Below are positions 23,257 through 30,170 of a stretch of DNA of 33,836 nt, piece by piece. Below the pieces are notes generated by a model. The model was not told where the DNA came from, ran no database searches, and saw only the letters and a program-made list of their open reading frames with translations. The DNA comes from Treponema sp. UBA3813 (lineage in GTDB: Bacteria; Spirochaetota; Spirochaetia; Treponematales; Treponemataceae): contig DFEB01000037.1 in NCBI GenBank assembly GCA_002368605.1, positions 1 to 33,836 of the forward strand, written 5' to 3'. The position numbers and the translations under genes were made by a program. Each line of letters opens with the position of its first letter. Position 1 is the first letter of the stretch.

Positions 23257-23304
23257 CCCCCAAAAACAAAAAGGCGGCATGAAGATGTTCTTCACACCGC
23301 CTTT
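23257..23304 (-). terminator. Attenuator-like terminator in the kinase leader
   Basis: Minus-strand hairpin: AAAGGCGG (23304-23297) pairs with CCGCCTTT (23277-23270), enclosing TGAAGA-ACA-TCTTCA (23294-23280) after a two-base internal mismatch. It is followed by TTGTTTTTG and at once by the kinase Shine-Dalgarno GGGGGA. No gene ends upstream, so this is a terminator inside the leader. A weak GCC-AAAGGC-GGT hexaloop (A1, G4) overlaps its 5' arm. Confidence 0.6.
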
Positions 23305-23384
23305 GGCTTTGTTGACGAAAATCCTAGCGAAAATGGTTTTGGTAATCAATGCAACTTTTGTTCCATTTATTTTTTTTTGCGATT

Positions 23385-23450
23385 GTGCTTAAATCCGATT
23401 GCAGGAAAAACGCAATGAAGCACGGAAAATCTCCGTGCTTTTTTTATTGC
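23385..23450 (+). promoter_or_regulatory. Terminator/antiterminator leader of the PLP-enzyme gene
   Basis: Terminator: AAGCACGGA 23418-23426, loop AAATC, TCCGTGCTT 23432-23440, then T-run to 23445; a perfect 9-bp stem. Competing fold: GTGCTT 23385-23390 pairs with AAGCAC 23418-23423, and ATTGC 23398-23402 pairs with GCAAT 23412-23416, sequestering the terminator's 5' arm. The core GCAATGAAGC at 23412-23421 recurs at 25018-25027 in the ureA leader and can form a GC-closed AATGAA hexaloop, though here only two base pairs close it. Confidence 0.65.
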
Positions 23451-23476: not shown

Positions 23477-24832
23477 ATGGCAACAGATTCAAGCATTATG
23501 GACGCAAACAGTTTCAAAAGCTCAGATGCAGATTCGCTCGATGCGCGTACGAGAAATCTTGTGGAGAGAAGGGAAAAAGTTCTCGGGGAATCTTATCGTC
23601 TTTTTTATAGGAAACCCGCGCACCTTACGCAGGGAAAGGGCGTGTATCTGTGGGATGCCGATGGCACAAAATATCTCGATATGTACAACAATATTCCGAG
23701 TATAGGGCATTCAAACAAGGCAGTTGTTGAAGCCGTATATGAGCAGATGCAGAAAATCAACACGCACACGCGCTATCTTCACGAAAACATCATCGCGTAC
23801 AGCGAGCAGCTGCTTTCTCTCATGCCGCCTGAAATCAACAAGGTGATGTTCATGTGCTCAGGTTCTGAGGCAAATGACCTTGCGCTCCGTATGTGCATGA
23901 ATTACACGGGCGGAACGGGCATTTTGCTTTCAAAAGAGGCGTATCACGGAAATACCTTTCTCGTGAGTGCGGTAAGCCCGGCTCTTGGTGGCGAGCAGGA
24001 GTTGTGGAACGGAGGATATCTTGTTCCGACTCCTGATTTTTACAGAAGCGGAATGAACGAGGAAGAATTCACGGAATGGTATTGCGCGCAGATTCAGAAA
24101 GCGATTGATGAGTTAAAGGCACGGGGAATCAAACTCGCCTGTTTTATCGCAGACTCGATTTTTTCATCAGACGGTGTTCACCCGAATCCAAAAGGATTTT
24201 TAAAAGCGGCGGTTGATGTGGTTCACAACAATGGAGGACTTTTTATAGCCGACGAAGTGCAGCCAGGCTTTTGCAGGACAGGCGACAGTTTTTGGGGGTT
24301 CGCACGGCATGGCATTGTTCCCGACCTTGTGACGATGGGAAAACCGATGGCAAACGGAATACCGTGTTCTGCTTTAGCCGGAAAAGCGGAGATTCTTGCA
24401 TCTTTCAGCGAGAAATTTCCGTATTTCAATACATTCGCGGGGAATCCTGTCTCAATGGCAGCGGCTCTGGCAGTCCTCAAATTCATAAAAGATGAGGACA
24501 TTCTTTCGCACACCAAGAAAGTCGGCTCAGAATTGTTCTCGGCTTTGAAAGAAGTGCAGTCTCGTCACTCAGAAATTGTCGGCGATGTCCGTGGCTCAGG
24601 CTTGTTCATTGGATTTGAGCTTGTGAGCGACGCAAAAAATAAAAAGCCTGACAAAGAAGGCACGCTTCGTCTCATTGATTTGATGTACGACCGGAAAGTG
24701 CTTACATCAAATTGCGGAACATACGGAAATGTTTTAAAAATCAGACCGCCGCTCGTATTCCAGTCGAAAGACATTGACTGGTTCTGTACAGCCCTTGATG
24801 AAAGTCTTTCCATACTTGAAGGACGAAAATAG
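23477..24832 (+). CDS. Class III PLP-dependent enzyme, probable O-phospho-amine phospho-lyase
   Basis: 451 residues from ATG 23477, chosen because AAAGGAGA at 23463-23470 precedes it and the upstream frame runs through the leader terminator. PLP lysine K289 lies in [29 protein letters not shown] and [13 protein letters not shown] are class III aminotransferase segments. Strings such as [18 protein letters not shown] closely resemble the human ethanolamine-phosphate and 5-phosphohydroxylysine phospho-lyases (NTxxRYLHxNI, [10 protein letters not shown]). Those enzymes eliminate phosphate and ammonia to give an aldehyde. The divergent APH kinase, PII and permease fit a pathway of uptake, phosphorylation and ammonia release. 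A conventional aminotransferase role is the alternative. A leader terminator controls it. Confidence 0.8.
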
Positions 24833-24927
24833 AACCGTTTGTCGGGCTGTCCGGAAGGTCAGACGGCAGTCGCCGAATGGGGATTGAACATAGAACTAAA
24901 GTTCCAAAGGAAAAAATCATAAAAGAC

Positions 24928-24955
24928 TTACAAAAAGCCTTTAAAAGTGTAAAAT
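24928..24955 (+). promoter_or_regulatory. Possible urease operon promoter
   Basis: TTACAA 24928-24933, 16-base spacer, TAAAAT 24950-24955 in AT-rich DNA. A start near 24962 would place the first hexaloop hairpin about 12 bases into the transcript. The stretch 24833-24927 holds no recognisable gene or strong signal. Confidence 0.4.
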
Positions 24956-24973
24956 ATAAGTATCCTATTCTTT

Positions 24974-25016
24974 GGCAGAGAAGCCTTTTCGTTTTCAGCG
25001 GAAAGGCTTCTTTTTT
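24974..25016 (+). promoter_or_regulatory. ureA leader unit 1: hexaloop hairpin overlapping terminator 1
   Basis: Hairpin GGC-AGAGAA-GCC at 24974-24985; the six-base loop has A1 and G4. It overlaps the 5' arm of a strong terminator: 24979-24991 pairs with 24999-25011 (AGAAGCCTTT with AAAGGCTTCT plus three more pairs), loop TTTTCAG, then T-run 25011-25016. Hairpin and terminator exclude each other. The loop pattern matches ANTAR-protein target hairpins. Confidence 0.65.
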
Positions 25017-25059
25017 GGCAATGAAGCCGCTTTGGAGCAAAATCCAGGGCGGCTTTTTT
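25017..25059 (+). promoter_or_regulatory. ureA leader unit 2: hexaloop hairpin overlapping terminator 2
   Basis: Hairpin GGC-AATGAA-GCC at 25017-25028; loop with A1 and G4. It overlaps the 5' arm of terminator 2: AAGCCGC 25024-25030 pairs with GCGGCTT 25049-25055, extended inside by TGGA 25033-25036 / TCCA 25043-25046 with two G-U pairs, loop GCAAAA, then T-run to 25059. The ureA Shine-Dalgarno GGAGG (25065-25069) follows at once. GGCTTC 25005-25010 can also pair with GAAGCC 25023-25028, breaking both terminators. Confidence 0.65.
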
Positions 25060-25074
25060 ATTTTGGAGGATAAT

Positions 25075-25386
25075 ATGAGGCTGACTCCACGGGAAAGTGA
25101 AAAATTACTTTTGAGCTATGCGGGTTTTCTTGCCGGGCAGCGAAAAGAGCGGGGATTAAAACTCAATTATGTTGAGGCCCTTGCCTACATTTCTTCGGCT
25201 CTTTTGGAGGAAGCCCGCGACGGCAAATCAGTGACGGAACTTATGCGGGACGGTGCGAAAATCCTTACGACAGAAGATGTGATGGATGGGGTGGCTGACA
25301 TGATTCATGAAGTCCAGGTGGAGGCGACTTTCCCTGACGGCACGAAGTTAGTCACTGTGCATAATCCGATTCGGGAGCTTGTATGA
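25075..25386 (+). CDS. ureA: Urease subunit gamma
   Basis: 103 residues beginning [17 protein letters not shown], the standard UreA start; [37 protein letters not shown] complete the family pattern. TTGGAGGA lies just upstream of ATG 25075; the longer frame upstream runs through two terminator hairpins. It forms the (UreABC)3 nickel urease that splits urea to ammonia and carbamate. It overlaps ureB by four bases (ATGA). Confidence 0.97.
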
Positions 25387-25706
25387 AAATCGGAGAAATT
25401 ATTTCTTGCAACGAGACGATTGAACTGAACCGTGGACGAAAAACAATCGAAATCAAAGTGGCGAATACCGGCGACAGACCTGTACAAGTAGGCTCGCATT
25501 TTCATTTTTTTGAGGTGAATCGGCTCCTTTCCTTTGACAGAAAAGCTGCTTTTGGCTTCCGGCTGGATATTCCTTCCGGAATGTCAGTGCGTTTTGAACC
25601 GGGCGAGACAAAATCCGTGCGTCTCTGCTCATTTGGTGGAAAATCTGAAATCTACGGGCTGAACAATTTGACTTGTGGAAAAACGGCAGGAGGAGCGGGA
25701 AAATGA
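25383..25706 (+). CDS. ureB: Urease subunit beta
   Basis: 107 residues. [40 protein letters not shown], and [18 protein letters not shown] match UreB, including the HFHFFEVN strand. The C-terminus after GLNNLTCGK is slightly short compared with the family. Start and stop overlap ureA and ureC by four bases each, giving coupled translation and equal subunit supply. Confidence 0.97.
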
Positions 25707-27430
25707 GTTACATGCTTGACGGAAAAAAATATGCCATGATGTACGGGCCTACGACAGGTGACAAAATCAGGCTCGCGGATACAAACCTTGTGATTCAGAT
25801 TGAAAAAGATTTTACGCAGTACGGAGACGAGGCAAAATTCGGCGGCGGCAAAACCCTTCGTGACGGAATGGGGCAGTCCGTGAATTCAAATCGCGCGACT
25901 GGTGATTTGGACTTGGTGATTACAAATTGCATAATTCTTGATTATACTGGGATTTACAAAGCTGACATCGGAATTCGGGACGGAAAAATCGCGGGAATCG
26001 GCAAGGCGGGAAACCCGGACACAATGGCTGGCGTAACGGAGGGAATGACTGTGGGCGCCGGAACGGAGGCACTTGCGGGCGAAGGCCTGATTGTAACGGC
26101 GGGGGGAATCGACTCGCACATTCACTTTATTTCGCCGGAACAGGTCGAGACGGCTCTGTCTTCCGGAATTACCACAATGATTGGCGGCGGCACAGGCCCC
26201 GCAGACGGCACAAATGCGACCACCTGTACTCCGGGAAGCTGGAATCTGGAGATGATGCTAAAAGCGACGGAAGATTTTCCCATGAATATCGGTTATCTGG
26301 GAAAGGGAAATTGCTCAAATAAAAACGAAGACAGCGAGCTTGTCTCTCAAATAAAGGCCGGAGCCTGCGGCTTGAAAATCCACGAAGACTGGGGCACGAC
26401 CCCGGCTGTCATCGATGCGGCTCTTACTGTCGCTGATAAATATGACGTTCAGGTTTGCATTCACACTGACACCCTCAACGAGGCCGGCTGTGTGGAAGAC
26501 ACGCTCCGGGCAATTGCGGGCCGCACGATTCACACTTATCACACCGAAGGGGCTGGTGGCGGCCATGCTCCTGATATTCTGAAAGTGGCGGGCTTTCCCA
26601 ATATTCTGCCTGCCTCAACAAATCCCACAATGCCCTTTACGGTGAACACGCTGGATGAGCACTTGGACATGCTTATGGTCTGTCATCATCTTGACAATAA
26701 AATTCCGGAGGATGTGGCATTTGCTGATTCGAGAATCCGGCCGGAAACGATTGCGGCGGAAGATGTCCTCCACGATATGGGCGCGCTGAGCATAATGAGC
26801 AGCGACAGTCAGGCGATGGGTCGGGTGGGCGAAGTAATCACCAGAACCTGGCAGACGGCACACAAAATGAAAGATGAGCGGGGTTCTCTTCCCGAAGAGT
26901 CAGGGGAAAACGACAATTTTCGGGTCAGGCGGTATGTCGCGAAATATACGATAAATCCTGCGATTGCCCACGGAATTTCCGAATATGTTGGCTCAATTGA
27001 AGCGGGAAAAATGGCTGATTTGGTTCTGTGGAATCCTGCCTTTTTCGGAGCCAAGCCGGACATGGTTATAAAGGGCGGGGCAATCGTTCTTTCAAAAATG
27101 GGTGATTCTAATGCTTCGATTCCGACTTGCCAGCCTGTCTACTACAGAAATATGTTCGGCTTTTACGGTAAGGCAAAATTTCTGACCTGTGTAACCTTTA
27201 TGTCTCAGGCAGCCATTGATGGGAAAATCCCGGAGAAGCTTGGCTTGGAAAAAATCTGCCTGCCTGTAAAAAATTGCCGGAAAATCAGTAAAAAAGACAT
27301 GCGGCTCAACCATGCCCTCCCAGAAATCAATGTGGATCCAGAAAATTACCGGGTGACGGCGGACGGAATGTTGATTACGAGCAAGGCGGCAGCTTCTCTT
27401 CCGCTTGCCCAAAGGTATTTTTTCTTCTGA
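25703..27430 (+). CDS. ureC: Urease catalytic subunit alpha
   Basis: 575 residues from ATG 25703 ([20 protein letters not shown]). All nickel-site residues are present: H139 and H141 in [10 protein letters not shown], the carbamylated lysine K225 in [10 protein letters not shown]254 in [10 protein letters not shown]280 in [11 protein letters not shown] and D368 in SSDSQAMGR. The mobile flap segment [22 protein letters not shown] with its cysteine and histidines is intact. ATGA overlap with ureB. The enzyme should be active once UreEFGD load nickel. Confidence 0.98.
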
Positions 27431-27469
27431 TTTATCAATATGACACTTATCTTTGGTTAAGGAGTTTGT

Positions 27470-27967
27470 ATGATTTGCGAAAAGATTCTCGGGAAAGTCA
27501 GTGACGCTCAATTCAAGGGAAAGGATTTTGATTTCGTAGAATTCGAATGGCATGAGACATATTCAAAGTTGCATAGAAAAAATTCCCGAAAGGGGCGAGA
27601 TATTGCCCTTCGTCTGGATGATTCTATCCTGAAAAGAGGAATCAAGCCCGGCGACGTCCTGGGAATTGACTCCGACGGCACGGTTATTGTCGCTGATGTG
27701 GGCGAGTGCGAAATCCTGAGCGTTAAGACGGCGGACAGGGACTTCCTTGCCACGGCAAAAATTGCCTATGAAATCGGAAACTGCCACGCGCCGCTCTTTG
27801 CCGGAAAGTCAGACTGCGAACTGATAACCTTGTACACAGAGCCAATGGAGCGGCTTTTGAAAAACCTTTGCGGATTCTCGATTTCAATCGAAAGGCGGAC
27901 GGAAAAACTCGACTTTTCCCGGCAGATTTCTTCGATAGTCGGACATTCCCACCACCATGCAGGCTGA
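27470..27967 (+). CDS. ureE: Urease accessory nickel metallochaperone UreE
   Basis: 165 residues. The central GNCHAPL corresponds to the family's GNRHxPL with the metal-binding histidine, though the arginine is cysteine. A short histidine-rich end GHSHHHAG replaces the long tails of some UreE proteins. It delivers nickel to the UreFGD complex. AAGGAG precedes ATG 27470; 39 bases separate it from ureC. The last 11 bases overlap ureF. Confidence 0.9.
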   Translation: MICEKILGKVSDAQFKGKDFDFVEFEWHETYSKLHRKNSRKGRDIALRLDDSILKRGIKPGDVLGIDSDGTVIVADVGECEILSVKTADRDFLATAKIAYEIGNCHAPLFAGKSDCELITLYTEPMERLLKNLCGFSISIERRTEKLDFSRQISSIVGHSHHHAG

Positions 27968-28634
27968 TTTTTTTGAATTGCTCCAGATTAACGATGCGGC
28001 ATTTCCTATCGGGAGCTATACGCTTTCATGGGGCTTGGAGACTTTCGTTCAGCAGGGGCTGATTTTTGACGCGGAATCGGCGGAATCATTCTTAAAGTCC
28101 GAGATTTCGCTTAATTTTCTCACGAACGAGCTTCTTCCTGCCCGTCTTTCCTGGGAGGCCGCCAGCTCAGGAAATTGGGAAAAGGTCAGAGAAATCGATG
28201 AAATCTACAATTCTGGCAAAAACGCAAGAGAAATCCGCGAGGGGAGCAAAAAACTTGCCCTCAGATTCTTGAAAACGGTATCGCTGTGGGAAAAATCAGG
28301 GGAAAATGAGGAGAATCCGCTTCTAAGGGCAGAAATCCGGCATTTTTCGGTTTTCTACGGCGCATATTGCGCAGTGAAGGGAATCAGCGAGGACGAAAGC
28401 CTTTCCGCCTTTTTCTACAGCCAGATTTCTTCCCGGATTGTGACGGCGGTAAAGCTCGTTCCCTTGAGCCAGAATGACGGTCAGATGATTTTGCACTCTC
28501 TTTTCAAGGATTTTGAGAATCTGCTGGAAAAAGTCATGGATTTTTCTGAAAAAGATTTGTGCCGCTCCTGCCCGGCCAGTGAAATCCGCGCCATGCAGCA
28601 TGAGTTTTTATACACAAGACTCTACATGAGCTAA
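27957..28634 (+). CDS. ureF: Urease accessory protein UreF
   Basis: 225 residues, all-helical family. LLQINDAAFPIGSYTLSWGLETFVQQG is the characteristic N-terminal segment (AFPIGSYxxSxGLE). The C-terminus LYTRLYMS resembles the family's conserved RLFxS end. UreF gates UreG GTP hydrolysis in nickel insertion. It overlaps the ureE end by 11 bases. Confidence 0.93.
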   Translation: MQADFFELLQINDAAFPIGSYTLSWGLETFVQQGLIFDAESAESFLKSEISLNFLTNELLPARLSWEAASSGNWEKVREIDEIYNSGKNAREIREGSKKLALRFLKTVSLWEKSGENEENPLLRAEIRHFSVFYGAYCAVKGISEDESLSAFFYSQISSRIVTAVKLVPLSQNDGQMILHSLFKDFENLLEKVMDFSEKDLCRSCPASEIRAMQHEFLYTRLYMS

Positions 28635-28677
28635 TTTTTAGGGGCACTTTGCCCAATATAAGGAAAAGAAGGAAAAA

Positions 28678-29325
28678 ATGGAGGAAAGAGAAAAAATGAA
28701 ATTTACTAAAATCGGAGTGGCAGGTCCGGTCGGCTCCGGTAAGACTGCCCTTGTGGAGGCCCTTACCCGTCGGCTTGCTGAAAAGTATTCAATCGGCGTA
28801 ATTACAAACGACATTTACACGAAAGAAGATGCGGAATTTTTGGCAAAAAATTCCGTGCTGCCAAAAGAGCGGATTCTGGGAGTGGAGACAGGCGGCTGTC
28901 CCCATACGGCAATTCGTGAGGACGCTTCCATGAATCTTGAGGCCGTGGATTTTCTGCGGGAAAAATTCCCTGACATAGAGCTGATTTTTATCGAGAGCGG
29001 CGGCGACAATCTGTCGGCAACATTCAGCCCGGAGCTTGTGGATGCGACGATTTTTGTAATTGATGTCGCGGAAGGGGATAAAATTCCCCGAAAAGGCGGG
29101 CCTGGAATCATGAGGAGCAATCTTCTTGTAATCAATAAAATCGACTTGGCTCCCCTTGTGGGCGCGTGCCTTGAGGTTATGGCAAGGGATTCCCGGAAAA
29201 TGCGGGGGCAAAAGCCTTTTGTTTTCACGAATATTCGGAACGGCGAGGGAATTGACGAGGTGCTTGCTTTTTTGGACAGAAATGTCTTTTTCGCTGATTT
29301 AGCCGCTTCAATGGAATCAAAATGA
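28678..29325 (+). CDS. ureG: Urease accessory GTPase UreG
   Basis: Up to 215 residues. P-loop [10 protein letters not shown], nickel-binding-region motif [17 protein letters not shown] (with the CPH nickel site) and VINKIDLAP for guanine recognition are all present. It hydrolyses GTP to drive nickel transfer. Two starts are possible: ATG 28678 (AAGGAAAAGAAGG upstream) and ATG 28696 (GAGGAAAGAG upstream), the second giving the shorter, more usual N-terminus. The stop overlaps ureD's ATG. Confidence 0.96.
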
Positions 29326-30170
29326 CAAATCAGTTTGGGAAGATTTCTCGTTTTGAGCTAAAGGCATCATGCTCAAAAAGCGGGAAGACTTTTATCAGCG
29401 ACAGTTTTTTCACCTCTCCTTTTAAAATCATGAAGCCATTTCAGAATCAAGACGGCTCAATTTTCCTGTATCAGCAGACTTCTTCGCCGGGAATCTTTGC
29501 CGGAGACATTCAGGAATATCATATACTAATAGAAGAAAACGCGAAATTAGAAATAATGAGCCAGTCTTTTGAGAAAATCTTCAAGATGGAGGAAAATGAA
29601 CTTGGCGAGCGGAAAATCCGCCTGCAATTACAGAAAAACAGCAGCCTGTTTTTTTCGCCGCTTCCCTGTATCCCTTTTTCGGAAAGCAGATTTCGCTCTG
29701 AAAGTAAGGTTTTCCTTGCGGATAAGAGTTCCCGCTTTCTCTACGAGGACATTTTGTGTGGCGGGCGAATTTCTCACGGCGAGCTTTTTGATTTTGATTT
29801 ATATCAGAATCTGATTGAGGTGAGGCGGGGGAAAAAGCTGATTTTCCGGGACAATGCTTTTTTTGAGGGCAGCAAGGGCGGCAAAAATCCGGAAAGGAAA
29901 CGCTTCCTGCAGGCGCCTTCTGTCTTCGGCGGCTTTACCCATGCCGGAAGTCTCTTGCTTTTCGGATTTGAAAAAAATCAATGGGAAATCAGAAAAGTTT
30001 TGGGGCTTGAAGAAAAACTTCTTTATGCCCAGAAAGCCGAATCAGAGTCAGAAAGGCTTGTTTGCGAAGTGACTGAAACTGATTCGGGGGATATAGCCCT
30101 CCGCGCCCTGGCATATTCTGCGGAGGAAATACAGAAAAGTTTTGAGCGCGTCAAGGCTTTTATCCGATAG
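29322..30170 (+). CDS. ureD: Urease accessory protein UreD (UreH)
   Basis: 282 residues, divergent but recognisable: [33 protein letters not shown] aligns with the SPGGLVGGD...LTTQAATKVYR block of UreD, here split by description, and [14 protein letters not shown]-like SHGELF follows. It scaffolds UreF and UreG on apo-urease. ATG overlaps ureG. Its last 11 bases overlap the convergent urtE. The operon order is thus ureABCEFGD. Confidence 0.85.

Follow-up and report, generated by a model that had tools for sequence, protein, structure and literature searches.

The closest described relatives of the leader analysed here are the dual-hexaloop targets of EutVW (Ramesh 2012, Walshe 2022), in which a REC-like plus ANTAR regulator acts on nitrogen genes through hexaloop hairpins, with A at loop position 1 and G at position 4 (A1/G4), that overlap the 5′ arm of a terminator. 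In the EutV experiments presented in PMC8934654 and PMC3369931, one hexaloop suffices for binding and two are needed for antitermination, both are required in vivo, and activity is lost on adding 20 nt between them (PMC8934654). The actinobacterial ANTAR hits described in PMC8164766 were curated with a 2–25 nt linker, and the extent to which single-hexaloop motifs are used is raised as a question in the EutV structure paper (PMC8934654). A second relative is AmiR/AmiC of the Pseudomonas amidase operon, with a dual motif reported for amiE (PMC3369931). A third is the group of ANTAR nitrogen regulons such as that of Desulfotomaculum acetoxidans (13 hits in six units in the account of Ramesh 2012, PMC3369931), in which a single genome carries several such leaders, placed on ammonium, glutamine, glutamate and urea-transport genes.

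The window, a 33,836-nt stretch from Treponema sp. UBA3813, carries a urease operon whose leader shares with the EutVW targets the A1/G4 hexaloop hairpin over a terminator 5′ arm, the link to nitrogen genes and, in the genome, a REC-like plus ANTAR protein. Unlike those targets, it has one hexaloop per terminator, a few nucleotides from the predicted RNA 5′ end and with no P1; stacked hairpins stand 31–111 nt apart, the receiver is degenerate, and a His replaces the stacking Tyr164. The ANTAR protein resembles AmiR in its pseudo-receiver and in the EAH.H...EAM motif of the ANTAR helix, but its neighbour is a glutamine synthetase instead of an amide-binding protein, and its candidate targets form a regulon instead of one operon. 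The D. acetoxidans set likewise comprises several leaders on nitrogen genes in one genome; it was found with a dual-hairpin model, and its main-text section names no urease genes (Ramesh 2012). From sequence comparison, we consider it very likely that the leader comprises two tandem, independent single-hexaloop attenuators, at which the genome's ANTAR protein would antiterminate urease when nitrogen is short.

ANTAR control of urease is not described in the listed titles and abstract openings of open-licence papers, among which two reviews (PMC6794450, PMC7602753) contain both terms, and in that literature nothing was found that joins ANTAR domain, Treponema and glutamine synthetase, or ANTAR, Treponema and terminator. 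The main text of Ramesh 2012 (PMC3369931) contains no word beginning 'spirochaet' or 'Treponema'. The original prediction cited no precedent for such control of urease; the case is less isolated than it supposed, as urea transporters are named among the ANTAR hits in the text of Ramesh 2012 (PMC3369931) and similar leaders occur at six of nine clostridial ureA loci.

Architecture of the urease leader

All parts of the leader lie on the plus strand. A consensus scan placed a promoter, CTTACA-17-TAAAAT, at 24927–24955, and transcription would start near 24962, judging from this promoter and from the promoter-to-hairpin distances in 38 leaders. The region 24974–25059 reads as two GGC-N6-GCC hairpins with A1/G4 loops, as had been predicted. 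The first ANTAR-type hexaloop hairpin (GGC-AGAGAA-GCC, 24974–24985) was matched by our covariance model at 24971–25018 with 39.5 bits, and the second (GGC-AATGAA-GCC, 25017–25028) at 25014–25061 with 33.7 bits; both are training members, and the second match came from the genome-wide search and was not listed in the window-only search. Terminator calling and folding placed intrinsic terminator 1 at 24978–25016 (stem 24978–25012, T-run to 25016), with hairpin 1 contributing its loop G4 and its 3′ arm to the terminator's 5′ arm, and intrinsic terminator 2 at 25023–25059 (stem 25023–25056, T-run to 25059), its 5′ arm starting with G4 of hairpin 2. The second T-run ends five bases 5′ of the ureA Shine-Dalgarno sequence GGAGG (25065–25069), which with the ATG at 25075 spans 25065–25077. 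Sequence and folding agree with the expectation that each hairpin overlaps the 5′ arm of its own terminator, immediately ahead of the ureA ribosome site. The genes ureA, ureB, ureC, ureE, ureF, ureG and ureD occupy 25075–30170 (Pfam; both UreE domains fall just under the cut-offs), and beyond them urea ABC-transporter-like genes lie on the opposite strand (Pfam).

Each 3-bp hairpin folds with −2.8 kcal/mol, compared with −22.5 kcal/mol for terminator 1 and −23.6 kcal/mol for terminator 2. Because the terminators are so much stronger, the hairpins are plausible only with a bound partner holding them. No Rfam model matched the ureA leader at gathering score. In the lowest-energy fold, the start of the leader, AUCCU (24962–24966), pairs with AGGAU at the ribosome site (25067–25071); this AUCCU sequence was not seen in the leader of the closest relative.

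Two further observations concern the surroundings of the leader. A palindrome, GAACTAAAGTTC, lies at 24893–24904, upstream of the ureA promoter, and has no other exact copy in the genome; it is exact in 5/17 ureA leaders and present with one or two changes in 4/17 more, and a near copy lies between a LuxR-type gene and a divergent short gene. It is possibly an operator for a DNA-binding urease regulator. Antisense to the urease alpha-subunit gene, the Rfam family 5_ureB_sRNA (RF02514) matched positions 25855–26153 on the minus strand with 87.3 bits, a match that may merely reflect conserved coding sequence.

Conservation of the leaders and number of hexaloops per terminator

Twenty same-genus ureA loci gave 17 leaders, two loci having no ureA leader of their own and one being cut by a contig end. 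In all 17, the final 200 nt include a terminator whose 5′ arm bears an A1/G4 loop, the conservation in orthologous leaders on which the original prediction depended. The 3-bp stem is intact in 13 of them (11 by a strict automatic test, plus L027 and L028, which a filter had excluded) and is interrupted by a mismatch in the remaining four (L020, L022, L025 and L026, one sequence group). Counted by terminators called in ureA leaders, 12/19 have their 5′ arm overlapped by a 3-bp hexaloop hairpin that includes at least two G-C pairs, and 12/12 of these are A1/G4. The 30 amtB loci examined yielded 27 terminators in 19 loci, with A1/G4 loops at 22 (16 loci). As a comparison set, 50 other terminators in the fetched sequence had a hexaloop of this kind in 11 cases and an A1/G4 loop in five, four of which lie just before a gene; the ureA and amtB frequencies are thus above chance. 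Outside the first set, T. bryantii B25 has the ureA unit GGT-AATGGA-GCC. The last amtB unit of this genome (L092:1549 onward) and of two relatives (L093, L097) carries G as its first loop base (GATGAT, GATGGT); A stands there in other relatives, and this position seems tolerant.

Stacking is the exception, since 15/17 ureA leaders consist of a single unit. Stacked units are confined to the leader in the window and to L015, in which the second unit has two pairs only, and the closest relative, with a 99% identical ureA, has unit 2 only. The hairpins are 31 nt apart here and 31–111 nt apart across 11 stacked leaders, ureA and other. For 38 first units, drawn from this genome, from ureA leaders and from further targets, the best upstream promoter, often TTGACA-17-TATAAA, leaves a median of 13 nt between the end of the −10 box and the hairpin. 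The RNA is thus predicted to start about 7 nt before the hairpin, which leaves no place for P1, and no A1/G4 hairpin with at least two G-C pairs was found between predicted start and unit in these 38 leaders. Five leaders have −10-to-hairpin gaps of 22–49 nt and the best −10 of L014 abuts the hairpin, which makes the promoters of those leaders uncertain. Clostridial leaders have ~23–47 nt between −10 and hairpin, so that an upstream element is possible there.

Among the alternatives, the one that survives best, itself improbable, is that proposed originally: a canonical dual-hexaloop ANTAR element in which hairpins 1 and 2 serve as P1 and P2 and terminator 1 falls within the linker. Two A1/G4 hairpins do follow one another, the second of them overlapping a terminator directly ahead of the ribosome site; of the features of the canonical motif, the leader has the A1/G4 hexaloop on a stem of at least 3 bp and the terminator overlap. 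It lacks the pair of hairpins joined by a short linker, however, as the 31-nt gap (like the 31–111 nt of the stacked leaders generally) exceeds the linker in the curated hits of PMC8164766, and an insertion of 20 nt cost EutV its activity in the experiments of PMC8934654. Moreover, hairpin 1 overlaps a terminator of its own, and a single unit is all that the closest relative and 15/17 ureA leaders possess. The pairing of hairpins across terminator 1 does not hold up, given the lone unit 2 of the closest relative and the absence of room for P1 before the predicted RNA 5′ end. Single-unit leaders, the lack of upstream room and stacked gaps of 31–111 nt led us to reject the canonical dual motif. 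What is found corresponds to the minimal, single-hexaloop form of ANTAR site (Walshe 2022), with a lone A1/G4 hexaloop in a genome that encodes an ANTAR protein, and it is likely that each unit would act as a self-contained attenuator, working alone.

Stem covariation, the ANTAR protein and the nitrogen genes

To compare stems, we set the units in register using only the loop motif A-R-N-G-R; stems were scored afterwards. The 69 terminators called in chosen leaders (a few of them, at glnN, the APH gene and an asnB-like gene, chosen by the stem test, a sampling bias) included 64 with the motif, which gave 54 distinct units; the other five, which included three whose loop starts with G, were dropped. 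The anchor put some rows out of register; MAFFT corrected four, and others, such as L078 and L079, stayed wrong and were kept. Over the 54 units, 92.8% of stem cells are paired, compared with 68.8% in shuffles, and the covariation score is 0.580, compared with 0.186 (sd 0.034), both values being reached by 0/500 shuffles; as descent relates the units and inflates these scores, they are support and not a probability. Sliding the partners lowers pairing to 22–51%. Two coarser measures are weaker: double-change pairs number 3 against 1.8 in shuffles (reached by 41/500), and further pair types 10 against 7.4 (reached by 20/500). The arm pairs observed are GGC/GCC, GGC/GUC, GAC/GUC, CAC/GUG, CGC/GCG, UGC/GCA, UUC/GAA, AUC/GAU and GUC/GAC. 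The consensus terminator stem starts at loop position 4, and in the aligned sequences the terminator stem opens with the very G on which EutV stacks. In most units the terminator does not include the 5′ stem arm, which nevertheless covaries with the 3′ arm.

A covariance model (R1) trained on 26 units was then run on the genome, where it scored 150 of 1923 candidates and returned rough E-values. At least 12 units scored E ≤ 0.0135, the next match listed being at E 0.27, and 12/12 precede a gene on the same strand. Two units lie before ureA; others precede the LuxR-type regulator, amtB running into a P-II domain, glnA, gltB, gdhA, a second glutamine synthetase (two units) and an APH-type kinase, and the last two precede a gene for a short membrane-looking protein and an ATP-grasp-like gene, labelled by eye with no NCBIfam match. 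We take the second glutamine synthetase to be glnN from its N-terminal signature, its profile scores being low. Seven of the 12 are outside the training set (gdhA, gltB, glnA, glnN twice, the membrane-looking and the ATP-grasp-like genes). Across the glnA genes examined, 3/14 have a leader unit of their own; a strict scan found a unit in 2/13 fetched glnA leaders, several of the others seeming to lie directly behind another coding gene.

The LuxR-type gene has a paralogous two-unit leader (L003:3110–3240) in which both loops are AAGGGA; it encodes a 111-aa LuxR/GerE-type regulator (L003:3226–3561) near urea transporter genes, and the LuxR-type gene of the closest relative is preceded by a similar unit. 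On the minus strand at L003:2220–2280, a terminator-like hairpin, seen by eye, precedes the urtA ribosome site with no obvious A1/G4 unit, and none of the R1 matches listed falls at the urtA leader.

The genome assembly (2.6 Mb, 83 contigs, 88.5% complete) encodes one ANTAR protein over the cut-off, so that the search for such a protein, a condition of the original prediction, succeeded. It is a 188-aa pseudo-receiver plus ANTAR protein whose gene lies 12 nt behind the glutamine synthetase gene glnA, an arrangement in which glnA adjoins the ANTAR gene at 29/30 same-genus ANTAR loci. ANTAR is present in 168/196 same-genus genomes and in 20/20 of those with ureA. We aligned 36 ANTAR proteins (its own, 30 from the genus and five from outside) at the EutV residues with RNA-contact roles described in PMC8934654. 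K149 and M172 are invariant (36/36), the K143 and K147 columns hold R or K, the Y164 column is His in 36/36, as in AmiR by alignment, and R142 is not conserved. In the receiver, the first acidic residue is S/T in 34/36, the Asp column is kept in 35/36, and the Lys column is not Lys in 14/36, including this genome. The intact phosphorylation pocket of EutV is therefore missing, and the protein has the AmiR-type layout of an ANTAR domain behind a degenerate receiver. With the first acidic residue lost, phosphorylation by a kinase is unlikely, and the sensor kinase suggested originally is not expected; regulation through a partner protein, on the model of AmiC/AmiR, is the more plausible guess.

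R1 gave 36 matches, 0 to 10 each, in ten ANTAR-positive same-genus genomes (97–99% complete) and three matches, none with an A1/G4 hexaloop, in eight ANTAR-negative ones (94–99% complete). Thirty of these matches came as loci; A1/G4 with three pairs is found at 23/27 from ANTAR-positive and 0/3 from ANTAR-negative genomes. Judging by protein-start signatures, the genes behind the matches are presumably glnN, amtB, gltB, gltD, asnB, purF, pyrG and others, a few having no obvious nitrogen role. A point against the ANTAR reading is that hexaloop amtB leaders also occur in six genomes with no detected ANTAR gene, G073 (92% complete) and G124, G157, G043, G076 and G186 (65–83%). For most of the six the gene is likely missing from the assembly, which is unproven for G073 and the single-contig G157. 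G013, G039 and G174 are three further ANTAR-negative genomes with amtB, and G110 proved ANTAR-positive.

These data bear on a second alternative, that the leader holds two ordinary constitutive terminators whose preceding A-rich bases mirror the U-tract, the hexaloops being by-products. A-tracts are common before terminator stems, the consensus stem starting at loop position 4 could explain part of the A/G conservation, and A1/G4 loops do occur in a few genomes with no detected ANTAR gene. We nevertheless regard it as very unlikely, because the 5′ stem arm, mostly outside the terminator, covaries with the 3′ arm, such loops are rare at other terminators, and the eight ANTAR-negative genomes gave no hexaloop-bearing match. 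Both terminators also lie directly before the ribosome site with no room for a promoter behind them, so constitutive terminators would always damp urease.

Proposed mechanism and distribution beyond the genus

The units are very probably ANTAR-target attenuators, and the ANTAR protein encoded beside glnA is highly likely to be their regulator. By default, RNA polymerase would stop at terminator 1 or 2. Under nitrogen shortage, the ANTAR protein would bind each A1/G4 hexaloop as it emerges and stabilise the 3-bp hairpin, which would then withhold the overlapping 5′ arm of the terminator and allow read-through into ureABCEFGD. Two units in series would demand two successes and so give a tighter off state. 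The same device before the operons for ammonia uptake and assimilation (amtB-PII, glnA, glnN, gltB, gdhA) would create a nitrogen regulon. The direction, on under nitrogen shortage, is suggested by the target genes, and the glutamine synthetase itself might be the sensor, as AmiC is for AmiR, a tentative guess. Hairpins, terminators, conservation, covariation, regulon membership and ANTAR presence are read from sequence; binding, antitermination and the nitrogen signal we infer. With an ANTAR gene present and the A1/G4 loops conserved, the idea that ANTAR-type antitermination controls urease, with each terminator guarded by a hairpin of its own, appears sound in outline.

An alternating RNA switch in which some other factor or a ligand acts through the central pairing of GGCTTC with GAAGCC is hardly credible: the 6 bp can form (−11.1 kcal/mol for the local fold), and the pairing recurs with 9 bp including G-U in the paralogous L003 leader and could form with 7 and 9 bp including G-U in the amtB leaders L081 and L083, but it is much weaker than the two terminators together, measures 3–6 bp in 7/9 other stacked leaders, a pairing to be expected in part since units repeat the same stem, is impossible in single-unit leaders, and comes with no Rfam family matching the leader. 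The suggestion that this pairing could open both terminators thus finds no consistent counterpart among stacked leaders; compared over the 11 of them, with 3–6 bp in seven, a central antiterminator was rejected as a shared mechanism.

Candidate units of the proposed kind also occur outside Treponema. Under strict filters and with 20 candidates scored per genome, at least 26 of 296 genomes of the phylum yielded a match with E ≤ 0.001. A full A1/G4 hexaloop is present in six of ten genomes from beyond the genus; five of these have ANTAR, with the unit before what we take, by signature, to be a glutamine synthetase-like gene, and in the sixth, G299, the unit precedes another gene and no ANTAR was found. 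In G428, which has no ANTAR, the A1/G4 loop sits on a stem with one of its three pairs missing, and G214, G291 and G381 have neither loop nor ANTAR; G299 and G428 count against the ANTAR reading, G428 making it slightly less probable. Among the nine clostridial ureA loci for which upstream DNA sufficed, an A1/G4 hexaloop followed by a T-run is present at six and a loop beginning with G at a seventh, and all seven genomes encode ANTAR; of the other two, L242 has no such leader and no ANTAR, and L255 has ANTAR and no such leader. A test for a 4-bp A1/G4 hairpin with T-run was passed at 4/9 clostridial, 7/19 Treponema and 2/51 other ureA loci.

On balance, we lean slightly towards a broader view in which a lone hexaloop at the transcript 5′ end would be a general ANTAR mode, used in host-associated Treponema, another spirochaete family and perhaps gut Clostridia. 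In Treponema it would act through a glutamine-synthetase-coupled pseudo-receiver ANTAR protein as global nitrogen regulator, with stacking setting leakiness and urease, and so urea recycling in rumen and gut, as one output. The analysis puts forward a candidate nitrogen regulator for rumen Treponema, together with its regulon; on this view nitrogen status would switch urease in rumen Treponema and some gut Clostridia via transcription read-through. As each terminator in leaders throughout the genus apparently comes with a single hexaloop and leaves no space for another, these leaders make the single-hexaloop question directly testable.

The window holds two further units upstream of the urease leader. 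At 24832 and below, to 20374, genes for the APH-type kinase and an amino-acid permease diverge from a class III aminotransferase gene, each side with a hexaloop-terminator unit. The unit GCC-AAAGGC-GGT with its terminator (23264–23310, minus strand; 36.4 bits, a training member) precedes the kinase gene and, further on, the permease gene (Pfam). A weaker unit with loop AATGAA, two pairs and a mismatch, also with a terminator (23408–23447, plus strand; 25.2 bits, a training member), precedes the aminotransferase gene; it was found in the window search and is absent from the 15 genome-search matches listed. The pairing of kinase and aminotransferase domains is reminiscent of the kinase-phospholyase routes by which amino alcohols are processed, possibly a further nitrogen source.
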